This document shows positions 1-45,701 of a DNA stretch of 45,782 nucleotides, piece by piece (position 1 is the first letter of the stretch; each line of letters opens with the position of its first letter). The notes beneath the pieces are model-generated. The model worked only from the letters and a program-made list of their open reading frames with translations. It searched no databases and was not told where the DNA came from. The stretch comes from a virus: positions 1 through 45,782 of the IMG/VR virus record IMGVR_UViG_3300009499_000015; one strand, written 5' to 3'. A program made the position numbers and the translations under genes.

Positions 1-47
1 ACCCGCAATAATCCTCATTCCTTTTGTCTTTTGCACTTTCAAAATTG

Positions 48-120
48 TGGAGGCGACCGGAGTCGAACCGGCGACCTCATCCCTGCCAAGGATGCGTTCT
101 CCCAACTGAACTACGCCCCC
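48..120 (-). tRNA. tRNA-Ala (anticodon GGC), intact
   Basis: Read on the - strand, 73 nt fold into a standard cloverleaf. The acceptor stem pairs GGGGGCG with CGCCTCC and contains the G3:U70 pair that marks tRNA-Ala. The anticodon loop is TTGGCAG with anticodon GGC at 85-87, and the T loop is TTCGACT. The 3' CCA is not encoded. Its 5' 39 nt (82-120) lie inside the attachment repeat, so the 5' half and everything upstream of it are supplied by the prophage, while the 3' half (48-81) is original host DNA. The gene is therefore a hybrid restored by integration. Confidence 0.95.
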
Positions 121-123
121 AAT
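82..123. repeat. Left attachment-site repeat (prophage boundary)
   Basis: A 42-bp sequence identical to 45660-45701. It covers tRNA-Ala nucleotides 1-39 (5' end through the anticodon loop) plus 3 bp upstream of the tRNA. A second block of 14 identical bp lies just beyond (131-144 and 45711-45724), separated by 7 bp here and 9 bp at the right end. The phage therefore carries a copy of both the tRNA 5' half and part of its upstream region. Confidence 0.92.
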
Positions 124-378
124 CCTTTGTTTTATTGAGCTTTCCGACGATTTCAGGTCATTTTCCACCATTTTCAATTTAGTATCGTTTAGTATCGGGA
201 AGTAACAATAAGCTACACGACATATATCACACTTTTTGCACACTTGCTGGATGGGGTCTCTGAAGACTGTCTAAACTATCCAGATTATACTAAAATCTTG
301 GGTACAAGTCAAGATAATTCAAATCGTGAGGATTAGGTCGTCCAGAGAGAAAAATGCCTTAAAACGCAAATTTAAGCC
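124..378. other. Left prophage end, no gene; tandem 10-bp repeat
   Basis: No open reading frame with a ribosome binding site is visible. The stretch contains the phage-derived upstream region of tRNA-Ala and a perfect tandem 10-bp repeat (TTTAGTATCG twice, 178-197). It also has a dyad around 250-285 (TGGAT and ATCCA flanking GTCT-CTGA-AGAC). The repeat could be an arm-type integrase or Xis binding site. No clear terminator for the late operon is seen. Confidence 0.5.
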
Positions 379-26641: not shown

Positions 26642-27098
26642 CTGCCTTATCCTTCTGTAACTGCTTACCCTTACGAGATATGACCCCTTGGGCCTGTTTC
26701 AATATCTTCCGTTGCTCCTGGATATCCAAAAGCCTCTGGTCTATCTCCGGCATACTCAGGCCCACGCGTTCGGTTACATCGCCAACCAGTAGTAACGCCT
26801 TGTCTATTACCGTTGCTATCGAAATGAATAAACTGGAGGCGGCGGTCTTCTGTAATTTCCTATCAGTAATGAAATTAAACATCCGATTTGCCTGATTCCA
26901 AAGCTTTTGTGCCATTTTCCTTTTTTCTATGTCCCTTAACTGTCCTAAGTTATCTATCTCATGCTGAATCTTATTTACCGCATTCTTACCAAGACTAACT
27001 CTATTAGATATAGTTCTAACACTATATCCTTGAGCAGTTAAGATCTTAACTCTTTCTCTTACTTCATCTGGAATTTGCTTATTACCTTTTCTCTTCAT
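26628..27098 (-). CDS. Terminase small subunit candidate (HTH protein)
   Basis: 156 aa. N-terminal helix-turn-helix (VRERVKILTAQGYSVRTISN, then SLGKNAVNKIQHE), a helical oligomerisation region and a charged tail, the plan of small terminases that recognise pac/cos DNA. First gene of the late operon and immediately upstream of large terminase. A GGAGATGG site precedes ATG. Confidence 0.6.
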   Translation of the reverse strand: MKRKGNKQIPDEVRERVKILTAQGYSVRTISNRVSLGKNAVNKIQHEIDNLGQLRDIEKRKMAQKLWNQANRMFNFITDRKLQKTAASSLFISIATVIDKALLLVGDVTERVGLSMPEIDQRLLDIQEQRKILKQAQGVISRKGKQLQKDKADEKS

Positions 27099-27147
27099 TT
27101 AAACCATCTCCTATAATAATCTCTGGTACTAATAAATATATAAATCT

Positions 27148-27179
27148 TATAGTAAGTAATAATATAAATATAGTAAGTA
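27148..27179. promoter_or_regulatory. Direct repeats upstream of the late operon
   Basis: TATAGTAAGTA occurs at 27148-27158 and 27169-27179, spaced 21 bp (two helical turns). The region is AT-rich and lies 50-80 bp upstream of the first late gene, with TATATT- and TATAAG-like -10 candidates on the - strand but no good -35. This layout suggests an activator-dependent late promoter. Confidence 0.45.
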
Positions 27180-32023: not shown

Positions 32024-32623
32024 TCACTCCAATAGGCTTTCTAATGTATGCACCATATTCTCCGCTGATGAGATGATTTCTTTGTTGCCTTTGGCTTTAT
32101 AACATTTATCCCAAGAAGAACCTTCGTTCCTACAATTATTACCTGAACGATATAACGGACATTTGGGGCAAGTAAAGATGCCGCTATAATCTTGACATAG
32201 GGGGCAACGAGGATTATCAAAATAAGCGATTATTGGCTGAATCTCTCCCAGCTTTTTGTCGTCAATCCACCATTCGCCCCAACCTTTTACAATCTCAATC
32301 CCCAGCTCATCCGCCAACTTCAACCGAGAGACATTGTCTCTCCAATGGATAATGCTTTCTTTTATGGCTTTGACTTCTTCGGGAGTCCAATCGTGTTTGA
32401 TTTTTTTGGCAGGAAATCTTATGGCTATTAATTTACACTCTTCTCTTTCTTCTACTTCTTCTATCTTTACTATGCCCATCGTTGGCTTGTCATCTTCGAG
32501 CAAGGCATCAATAGTTTCTTTTAAAAAATACCTAAGCTTGAAACCATCTACCATGTCGTCTTCAGGATTGAGTGTTGGCTCAGTTAAATTTTTCAAGGTT
32601 TCTTTAAGTTTTTCCCTGTCCAT
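32024..32623 (-). CDS. Cys-rich early protein
   Basis: 199 aa. The N-terminal half is acidic with a beta region (MGIVKIEEVEEREECKLIAI). Near the C-terminus CPLCQDYSGIFTCPKCPLYR plus two more cysteines forms a zinc cluster. Overlaps the initiator-like gene by 20 bp in another frame and has an AAGGAGG site. Function unknown; position beside the replication protein suggests a role in replication. Confidence 0.5.
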   Translation of the reverse strand: MDREKLKETLKNLTEPTLNPEDDMVDGFKLRYFLKETIDALLEDDKPTMGIVKIEEVEEREECKLIAIRFPAKKIKHDWTPEEVKAIKESIIHWRDNVSRLKLADELGIEIVKGWGEWWIDDKKLGEIQPIIAYFDNPRCPLCQDYSGIFTCPKCPLYRSGNNCRNEGSSWDKCYKAKGNKEIISSAENMVHTLESLLE

Positions 32624-33446
32624 TTTTGCCTCCTTGTTTTTCTCTGATTTCTCTCTTTAATCGTTCGGCATCTTCGTGGATTTGTTTCAATTCCTGTTTG
32701 GTCAATTCAGGCTTTTTCGCTGGTAAATCATCCTTAAATCTATCCTCAGGTATACTGAAAACAGGTTTTTTGTATTTCCGCCAGTCTTTCCAGTTATTGA
32801 ACCAGGTCTTGCCATCTTGAATATACCCCTTTACTGCCACTCTTTCGCTTTGCAAATAGTTTTCCAATGCTTTATTGATGTCTTCCCAGTCCTCTTCTGT
32901 CTTAACAGAGGCATTGAAGTGCCTCAGTGCTTCTTTCTTCCCCACTCTTTCTGGGTATTTAGCCCATATTACTTCAAACTTGGCGGTGGGAGAGGCAGAG
33001 TCAAAGAGAAGTGGCTTTGTTTTCCCCTCAGACTCCCCTTTCCTTTTCTTATCCTTATCCTTATCCTTATCCTTATCCTTAAGGGTTTGGCAACCCTTAA
33101 CTAACCCTTTCATAACCCTTTGCAATAAACCATATTTTTTAAGAAGTTTGATAACGGATTTGTGAGGATTTGCCTCTTTGCTTAAATATCCATATTGAAA
33201 TTCTATAAACTTTACTATCCATAATTTATCTCTATCTAATTCTTCAATCCGTTCTGTAAAATCCTTTAAAATTTCATTAGTTATTTGTTCACCTATACAA
33301 AAACTTGCCAATTCATAATCTATTTTCCAAATACCAGCTACATCGCAACGGTCTAATATAAATAACCAAAAAAGTTTAGATTTTAAAGGAAGTTTCCTAA
33401 ACCAATTATCTTCCCACTTATCGCTTGCAGTAAATCTTTTAGCCAT
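32604..33446 (-). CDS. Replication initiator-like protein with KD repeat
   Basis: 280 aa. N-terminal DNA-binding region (SDKWEDNWFRKLPLKSKLFWL, winged-helix type) is followed by a low-complexity linker of five Lys-Asp pairs. A C-terminal block FEVIWAKYPERVGKKEALRHF... with FNNWKDW is typical of phage replication initiation proteins. It would bind the phage origin and recruit host helicase; no phage helicase, primase or polymerase is seen. The repeat is encoded by tandem TCCTTA hexamers on the + strand (33048-33081), whose copy number can change in frame. Confidence 0.6.
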   Translation of the reverse strand: MAKRFTASDKWEDNWFRKLPLKSKLFWLFILDRCDVAGIWKIDYELASFCIGEQITNEILKDFTERIEELDRDKLWIVKFIEFQYGYLSKEANPHKSVIKLLKKYGLLQRVMKGLVKGCQTLKDKDKDKDKDKKRKGESEGKTKPLLFDSASPTAKFEVIWAKYPERVGKKEALRHFNASVKTEEDWEDINKALENYLQSERVAVKGYIQDGKTWFNNWKDWRKYKKPVFSIPEDRFKDDLPAKKPELTKQELKQIHEDAERLKREIREKQGGKNGQGKT

Positions 33447-41394: not shown

Positions 41395-41494
41395 GGTTGA
41401 TTGGTAGCTGGTTACTACAACAGCGTCTGGAGTCGAACCAGCCTAACCAAGAAACCCGGTTATCCACTATCAGGCTACCATGCCACAATCAACC
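41395..41494 (-). ncRNA. tRNA-sized structured unit 3 of 4
   Basis: 100 nt closed by GGTTGATTG/CAATCAACC (9 pairs); TGGTAGC/GCTACCA pairs further in. A TAACC/GGTTA hairpin has a 9-nt loop and CTGG-TTCGACT-CCAG is a canonical T-arm on the - strand, but the T-arm is not next to the closing stem. It does not fold as a textbook tRNA by hand. Confidence 0.45.
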
Positions 41495-41596: not shown

Positions 41597-41683
41597 GGCT
41601 AACTGGCAGGATTTGAACCTATCTTGCTGCAAATATTATGCAGTTCCTTTGCGGGAGCGTTTCACAGAACGCCACAGTTAGCC
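41597..41683 (-). ncRNA. tRNA-sized structured unit 1 of 4
   Basis: 87 nt closed by GGCTAACTG/CAGTTAGCC (9 perfect pairs). Inside are a D-arm-like GCGTT/AACGC hairpin, a CTGCA-TAATATT-TGCAG hairpin of anticodon-arm size (5+7+5), and a TAGG-TTCAAAT-CCTG T-arm. U33 is missing and 13 nt separate the D-arm from the next arm, so anticodon identity is not assigned. Confidence 0.5.
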
Positions 41684-41688
41684 ATATT

Positions 41689-41883
41689 TCAAAGACCCTT
41701 CAAACCAACCTTGTGCCTGATATAATACTTTCGGTTTATTTTCGGTATCTTCCCGTCGGTATCAAAAAGTCTGGTTAGGGTATTCTTCATAACTTTAGTA
41801 CACCAATCAGAGCAATAAGGATAACGCCGACTATTCACTTTCACTAACTTGCGACAATTCGGATTTTTGCATTTCTTCTTCAT
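41689..41883 (-). CDS. Small zinc-finger protein
   Basis: 64 aa. KCKNPNCRKLVKVNSRRYPY followed by CSDWC gives a four-cysteine zinc finger; basic C-terminus. Overlaps the upstream gene by 53 bp in another frame. Ends 5 bp before the first tRNA-like unit. Function unknown. Confidence 0.5.
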   Translation of the reverse strand: MKKKCKNPNCRKLVKVNSRRYPYCSDWCTKVMKNTLTRLFDTDGKIPKINRKYYIRHKVGLKGL

Positions 41884-44239: not shown

Positions 44240-44280
44240 AAATGTCCCCAACAGTCTAAACCTCAAAAAAGTTATTAGAC
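44240..44280. other. Gap after lipoprotein
   Basis: No gene or convincing terminator; leads into the origin-like region. Confidence 0.4.
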
Positions 44281-44550
44281 TTATCCACAAGCGAAATTTG
44301 GTAGTGTTTAATTGGTTATTTCCTAAAAAGCGGTCTTTCAATATGAGAGTTATCCACAGGTTATCCACAAGTAAAGCCAAGTTATCCACTACAGCAAGTA
44401 CCAGCAAGTATCAGAGAACTCCTAAATCGTATAATTTCGTATAAGCAAAAGTCCATATTACTACTACTACTATTCTATATTCTATTAAAGTCAAAGTCTA
44501 TTACTAATACTATATTACTATATTATATATTATATTATTATATTACTATG
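44281..44550. other. Putative DnaA-dependent origin of replication
   Basis: Perfect DnaA boxes TTATCCACA at 44281, 44350 and 44361, with TTATCCACT at 44382 (spacings 69, 11 and 21 bp), all in the same orientation. After short 10-bp-pitch repeats (CAGCAAGTA at 44392 and 44402; TCGTATAA at 44428 and 44438) comes a TAC/CTA trinucleotide run (44458-44474). It reads 3'-GAT-GAT-GAT-GAT-5' on the lower strand, then about 75 bp of almost pure A/T. DnaA boxes, DnaA-trio and unwinding region in this order and orientation match the bacterial basal origin. Confidence 0.6.
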
Positions 44551-44561
44551 TGGGGAATAAA

Positions 44562-45629
44562 ATGAGTCCGACAGTCTACAAACGAGGAAATATCTGGTGG
44601 CTTCAATGGGTCGAGGATGGGAAGCAACATCGGGAATCGGCTCATACTTCCAACAGAAGAGTAGCCCAAACTTTTTTAGGAGAGAAACTTTATAGGTTAA
44701 GTAAGAAGAAGGCAGGACTGCTGAAGGATAAGAACTTCAAAGAGTTCGTAAAAGAGTATTTGGAATACAGCAAGACGAATAAATCTCCCAGTAGTTATGA
44801 AACTGATAAACGAATACTGTATAAATTTACAGTCCTCTTCAAGACAAGAAACCTTTCCGAAGTTACCACGCCTAAATTAGAGAAGTATAAGACTATCAGG
44901 ATAAATCAGGGAGTTACAAAGTCAACAATCAACAGAGAACTGACAGTATTGAAACATACATTGAATAAGGCAGTAGAATGGAATTATCTGGAAGATAGTC
45001 CTGGAAGGTTTGTAAGGAAATTCAGGTATGAAAAAACATCTATCAAGGTAAGGTCTTTGTCTAATGAGGATATAGCCAAACTACTGAATGCCCTTGGGTC
45101 CGAAACTCACAAGCCAGAAGCAATGAGGCAAACTATCAGAAATATAATCCTAATGGCTACTAATACCGGTATGAGATTATCAGAAGTACTAACTGCTAAA
45201 TGGGAAGATGTGAACTTGAAGGAGAAATTGATTGAAACTAAGACTATTAAAGGTGGGAGATTAAGAACAAGGAGAATACCCCTGAACAGGTGCAGTTATA
45301 ATATTATAACAGTATCACGCAGGGTCGGAGAGTATATCTTTAGTCCTAAAAAGAAACCAATTACCCGGGATTATGTTACTCATACATTTCTGAAACTGGT
45401 TAGGAAAACTGGGATCGCCCCAGCCTGTTTCAATGACCTTCGGCATACCTTCGCTTCCCATCTGGGAGAGGCCGGAGCTGATGAGAGGACTATCGCGGAA
45501 CTTCTCGGTCATACATCTACAAGGACTACTTGGATTTATACCCATTTAGGTAGGGAACATTTGAGGAAGGCAGTAGAGAAGTTAGATTTACCTAATCACA
45601 AAATTAGCACAATCTCAAATCACTATTGA
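44562..45629 (+). CDS. int: Tyrosine integrase
   Basis: 355 aa from ATG 44562 (GGGG site; a GTG 12 bp earlier is less likely). N-terminal arm-binding segment ([18 protein letters not shown]), a core-binding SAM-like helical domain (about 60-140) and the catalytic domain with R205, K230, R294, H317 and nucleophile Y326. The usual His three residues before R294 is Asn (N291, FNDLRHTF). It lies 30 bp from the right attachment repeat and mediates recombination at tRNA-Ala. Confidence 0.9.
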
Positions 45630-45659: not shown

Positions 45660-45701
45660 CCTGCCAAGGATGCGTTCTCCCAACTGAACTACGCCCCCAA
45701 T
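45660..45701. repeat. Right attachment-site repeat, broken tRNA-Ala 5' half
   Basis: Identical to 82-123. It carries tRNA-Ala nucleotides 1-39 on the - strand (45660-45698), then unrelated phage sequence instead of the 3' half, so the fragment cannot fold. To its right lies the original host upstream region of the tRNA. This places the host promoter side at the right end and the tRNA 3' half at the left. Confidence 0.92.

Follow-up and report, generated by a model that had tools for sequence, protein, structure and literature searches.

Directly upstream of its integrase gene, a temperate tailed phage carries an arrangement of DnaA boxes, DnaA-trio-like repeats and A/T-rich DNA that resembles the unwinding region of a bacterial chromosomal origin. 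We give an even chance to the reading that this region is a host-DnaA-dependent, oriC-like origin of the phage, atypical or incomplete as a basal unwinding system (BUS). The combination of array, trios and A/T tract lies far beyond chance, the near-host genomes encode a canonical DnaA, and the phage has a gene of the initiator/helicase-loader type, all of which argue for this reading. It also draws on the enrichment of box-then-trio order over the reverse order among viral contigs and on the host dnaA-dnaN spacer, where box-like sites and a brief run of CTA likewise occur. Moreover, other phages carry canonical modules, which makes an origin role plausible.

Prophage and host group

The window analysed here comprises an entire IMG/VR record (45,782 bp). 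It contains a prophage inserted in a tRNA-Ala(GGC) gene, with a 42-bp attachment core in two copies (Table 1). The tRNA gene and its flank (window 1-242) match contig WJOT01000037 of a MAG labelled 'Clostridia bacterium' (G001) at 93%, and the right flank of the prophage matches the same genome at 87%. A second genome, G005, has a 94% identical integrase end with the same right flank, its copy being cut within int. These matches place the host in a small group; only six genomes of its class are in the collection. Searching IMG/VR with the integrase returned no close phage relatives (best 31%). The Sak4-like protein has one IMG/VR relative at 53%, the fetched part of which has no box cluster, and no plasmid relatives of the box/trio region were found. 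Two minus-strand stretches of the window (41400-41490 and 41600-41690) are tRNA-like without an ARAGORN or Rfam call, and are possibly degenerate phage tRNAs.

Table 1. Features of the prophage and related stretches; positions refer to the window unless a locus is named.
Feature	Position	Strand	Remarks
tRNA-Ala(GGC)	47-120	-	One attachment-core copy at 82-123
Replication initiator/DnaD-like helicase-loader type protein	32604-33446	-	Contains (CCTTAT)7.8 at 33037-33081
Integrase-start-like fragment, ATGTCCCCAACAGTCT	44243-44258	+	Marks upstream edge of box segment
Integrase-start fragment ATGTCCCCAACAGTCTACAAAAGAGGAAATATCTGGTGGCTTCA, copies	44243-44258; L160 2824-2841, 4270-4287; L161 471-488		
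DnaA box 1, TTATCCACA	44281-44289	+	Exact
DnaA box 2, TTATCCACA	44350-44358	+	Exact
DnaA box 3, TTATCCACA	44361-44369	+	Exact; 11 bp after box 2
DnaA box 4, TTATCCACT	44382-44390	+	One mismatch; 21 bp after box 3
Spacer, box 4 to trios	44391-44457	+	67 bp; no DnaA box with ≤2 mismatches (direct scan)
Block conserved with G001:C39 island	44448-45589	+	80% DNA identity; trio/AT tract and int, not box array
Trio-like run, TTA(CTA)4TTC	44458-44475	+	Lower strand reads as 3'-GAT/AAT-5' repeats
A/T tract	44476-44549	+	Richest A+T of record; TATTACTA-like repeats and second run CTATTACTAATACTA
Tyrosine integrase (int)	44562-45629	+	PF00589, 1.9e-30; ATG 44562, GTG at 44550 also open
Second attachment-core copy (5' half of tRNA-Ala)	45660-45701	-	

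DnaA boxes, trios and A/T tract

The initial annotation had described three perfect DnaA boxes and a fourth near-match in one orientation, and the coordinates bear this out. No further exact TTATCCACA occurs on either strand of the 45.8-kb window, so that all three lie within 90 bp on the same strand. Measured from start to start, the boxes are 69, 11 and 21 bp apart; the helical spacing claimed for the boxes therefore holds for the last three and fails for the first. When the whole window was simulated 400 times with a first-order Markov model, exact boxes averaged 0.43 per window, and at least two on the same strand within 120 bp were seen in 0 of the 400. Chance is excluded as the source of the cluster. 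The array (44281-44390) is likely to bind DnaA. An identity as arm repeats of the integrase attachment site was ruled out by the position of the core, about 1.3 kb from the boxes.

The spacer behind box 4 contains a 10-bp tandem repeat, CAGCAAGTAC/CAGCAAGTAT (44392-44411); apart from these two copies, the boxes were not seen to be flanked by an iteron array. The trios then read TTA-CTA-CTA-CTA-CTA-TTC, with the middle A on the strand opposite the boxes. The window has no second run as long as their (CTA)4 core (44461-44472), and such a run was present in one of the 400 simulated windows. Behind the trios, at about 44483-44550, A+T measured over 55 bp reaches its maximum for the record, and the A/T tract ends at the ribosome-binding site of the integrase gene. 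Boxes, lower-strand 3'-GAT repeats and A/T tract are thus all present, in the order and on the strand reported earlier.

A BUS has been defined as a box with at most two mismatches, 0-16 bp from at least three trios, the spacer being most commonly 13 bp (PMC8287927). The boxes may be TTATCCACA or host-specific, and the prophage has the former; it also has six consecutive middle-A trios opposite the box strand (44458-44475). The nearest qualifying box, however, ends 67 bp from the first trio, and a direct scan found no box with two or fewer mismatches at the trios, where candidates such as AAGTCCATA have four. The proposed match to a BUS consequently stands for order and strand and breaks down on geometry. 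As read from its sequence, the prophage module is an atypical or incomplete BUS from which the proximal DnaA box is missing. A loop-back mode has been described for other origins (PMC10797057); such a mode would, we infer, tolerate the distance between boxes and trios seen here.

Host DnaA and phage replication genes

The near-host genomes G001 and G002 each have a gene for a full-length DnaA that includes the domain IV signature; in G001, dnaA adjoins rnpA and dnaN. In their dnaA-dnaN spacers, boxes of the TTATTCACA type occur, and TTATTAACA is followed by a brief run, CTACTA. Tandem exact boxes occur in none of the six genomes of the class, which are incomplete drafts, so that on paper the phage array would be a better predicted DnaA target than the host's own. 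The same count, together with the different sequence of the dnaA-dnaN spacers, ruled out that the array is a copy of the host oriC. The near-host genomes also encode a second protein of 620-627 aa (L138, G002:C44; L139, G001:C27) with a DnaA-type ATPase domain and without domain IV. Its score exceeds the cut-off set for DnaA in NCBIfam TIGR00362, and the name DnaA would be given to it wrongly.

No polymerase or replicative helicase was recognised among the prophage genes, in agreement with the initial annotation. That description was nevertheless incomplete, as the prophage encodes a DnaD/primosomal-type initiator, a DUF669/SSB-like protein and a Sak4-like recombinase. The initiator was not found in the six class genomes by a search that had no positive control. 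As to GC skew, the box/trio site of the window coincides with a change of gene direction; a clean GC-skew switch was not seen around the modules in 11 other phage stretches.

A sister island with the same integrase leader

An island of about 9 kb in the near-host genome (G001:C39; L159 4835-13884) lies at the same tRNA-Ala and encodes an integrase 81% identical to that of the prophage. DNA identity between the two begins at 44448, just before the trios, and continues through int. The leader of the island has no DnaA boxes; the box array lies outside the conserved block and is without counterpart. Because the island keeps the integrase and the trio/AT leader without boxes, the two halves of the module are separable. 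The trio/AT part, which had been taken for one half of a BUS, thus also occurs boxless upstream of the same integrase, and its assignment has to be qualified. Either the tract is an integrase leader that resembles trios, or the array was lost from the island or never present there; a single case of each is too little to choose between them.

No phage replication or structural gene was seen in the island. It encodes a DNA methylase, as well as an AAA ATPase with a partner gene that look like defence genes, and has a stretch in common with window 26898-27166. A 17-mer from the conserved leader has five matching stretches in IMG/VR. The integrase-start fragment at the upstream edge of the box segment recurs directly behind unrelated cargo genes, the host genome included. 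The pattern looks as if cargo had been inserted at, or copied with, the start of int.

Recurrence in other phages

We searched 2.9 million viral contigs of IMG/VR for boxes followed by trios, with the reverse order as control. The pattern box-N50-80-CTACTACTACT was found in 36 stretches versus 12 in reverse, and a spacing of N0-16 gave 28 versus 5, counts that are not independent since some records are near-duplicates. Forward sites have on average 3.8-3.9 boxes, compared with 1.0-1.25 in the controls. A little over half of them fall outside any long ORF, and the DNA behind the trios is A/T-rich, whereas the controls are mostly coding repeats. Even the search that specified a box at 50-80 bp turned up, for the most part, sites with a proximal box as well, at 4-14 bp. 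This trio-first search was needed because, in the first 120 tandem-pair stretches, a general association of tandem boxes with trios in phages did not hold. Box arrays without adjoining CTA-type trios were seen in Berlinvirus P483, Vibrio phage KIT04 and Lactococcus phage AM1. The array of the T7-like Escherichia phage P483 (L258 2433-2558) comprises five exact and three near boxes in one orientation within a 1.5-kb non-coding gap.

For closer comparison, 25 candidate loci were chosen for multi-box or non-coding context. In 20 of these 25, a box with no more than one mismatch lies 4-14 bp from the trios, and in one more the box at that distance has two mismatches; the distances cluster near 4-5, 9-10 and 12-14 bp. 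Four loci (L192, L195, L205 and L207) are without a proximal box, like the window. The contigs carry phage genes, including those for terminases, RecT, exonucleases, a phage RNA polymerase, and microvirus Rep and capsid, and the neighbours of the module in most annotated loci are replication, recombination or packaging genes.

The module is also carried by ssDNA microviruses. In bajarodmic virus 735, tandem boxes are followed after 4 bp by six TTA trios, and in gokushovirus 50Chd433 the box TTTTCCACA precedes five CTA; phi-CA82 carries the module as well. In these three (L275, L277 and L278) and in IMG/VR loci L210 and L227, boxes, trios and an AT tract lie near the Rep gene. Several microvirus modules have canonical BUS spacing despite an encoded rolling-circle Rep. 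Our search of the open-access literature found neither DnaA-trios described for phages nor any mention of DnaA boxes in Microviridae.

Possible functions of the site

If the site is an origin, host DnaA-ATP would assemble on the box array after excision. Bending or bridging of the spacer would then bring DnaA onto the trio/AT strand in the loop-back mode, not as an adjacent filament. The DnaD-like protein of the phage, together with the host helicase, would start replication there. That the site is used in this way, with the phage protein loading the host helicase, has about an even chance of being correct. A link between induction timing and DnaA levels, raised in the initial annotation, is possible but unsupported. 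The origin reading is weakened by the 67-bp gap, set against a 16-bp maximum, by the existence of the trio/AT leader without boxes in the sister island, and by the phage initiator gene, which could hold the origin instead. In this last case the origin would lie elsewhere, most simply inside the initiator gene, and the array would be a remnant, a titration site or a helper. The missing proximal box fits such a degenerate or accessory site, as does the integrase-start scar that bounds the array segment in a cargo hotspot. The tandem repeat within the initiator gene recalls a lambda-O-like arrangement; it encodes Asp-Lys repeats, however, and may be a coding effect, and three exact same-strand boxes are unlikely to survive decay. 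Overall, we consider a degenerate or accessory site improbable.

The array could instead be regulatory, with DnaA at 44281-44390 controlling transcription of int, and perhaps of the upstream repressor operon, and the trio/AT tract serving as an A/T-rich int leader. Integration or excision would thereby be coupled to the state of replication. In favour of this are the position of the array, some 170-280 bp ahead of the int start, the conservation of the trio/AT leader together with int in the absence of boxes, and a TATAAT-like hexamer at 44430. Promoter matches in the region nevertheless number 4 against 4.4 expected, with none on the plus strand between boxes and int, and the modules of other phages mostly lie beside replication or packaging genes rather than integrases. 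We regard regulation as rather unlikely. It is very improbable that boxes and trio repeats are coincidental and unrelated to DnaA: tandem box pairs do occur in more than 100 viral stretches that show no trio enrichment as a group, but not even two same-strand boxes came together in the simulated windows.

Taking the host-dependent origin as the preferred reading, we tentatively propose, at somewhat under even probability, that box/trio modules of the chromosomal type form a recurring and functional class of origins or helicase-loading sites among phages, tailed phages and ssDNA microviruses alike. The prophage would then carry a long-spacer variant that competes with a host oriC having weaker boxes. 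If phages use the origin-melting code of their hosts, DnaA would be a limiting resource common to chromosome and virus, and regulators of DnaA would act on phage replication too. The modules in rolling-circle microviruses are a puzzle, as the Rep nuclease should make duplex melting by DnaA unnecessary. The 67-bp gap, in turn, offers a natural case for asking whether DnaA acts on trios from afar.

Comparison with known systems

The overall architecture of the prophage site is reminiscent of the BUS of bacterial oriC (Bacillus subtilis incC; Richardson 2019, PMC6669920; Pelliciari 2021, PMC8287927), with same-strand boxes, 3'-GAT/AAT trios and A/T-rich DNA in common. Unlike the bacterial BUS, it is without a proximal box, has a gap of 67 bp rather than 0-16 bp (PMC8287927), and adjoins int instead of dnaA/dnaN. 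Box array, trios and AT tract, often in non-coding DNA, also unite the prophage with IMG/VR loci L194, L197, L200, L209, L213, L216 and L226, and the same three elements with phi-CA82, bajarodmic virus 735 and gokushovirus 50Chd433. Most of these other phage modules differ in having a box 4-14 bp from the trios, and none of the annotated ones is linked to int.

The putative origin of Pseudomonas phage vB_PseuGesM_254 (PMC11512268) likewise combines predicted DnaA boxes with an AT-rich region. That phage has its own polymerase, and its origin is an Ori-Finder prediction only, in which trios were not considered. When comparing the prophage with the oriV of Salmonella genomic island 1 (PMC7826253) and iteron-plasmid origins, a clear difference is the location of the initiator: these have initiator iterons beside rep, whereas the DnaD-like gene of the prophage lies 11 kb away. 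The likeness is that all are excisable or extrachromosomal elements with DnaA boxes and an AT-rich region, which in the island and the plasmids, and putatively in the prophage, provide for the element's own replication.
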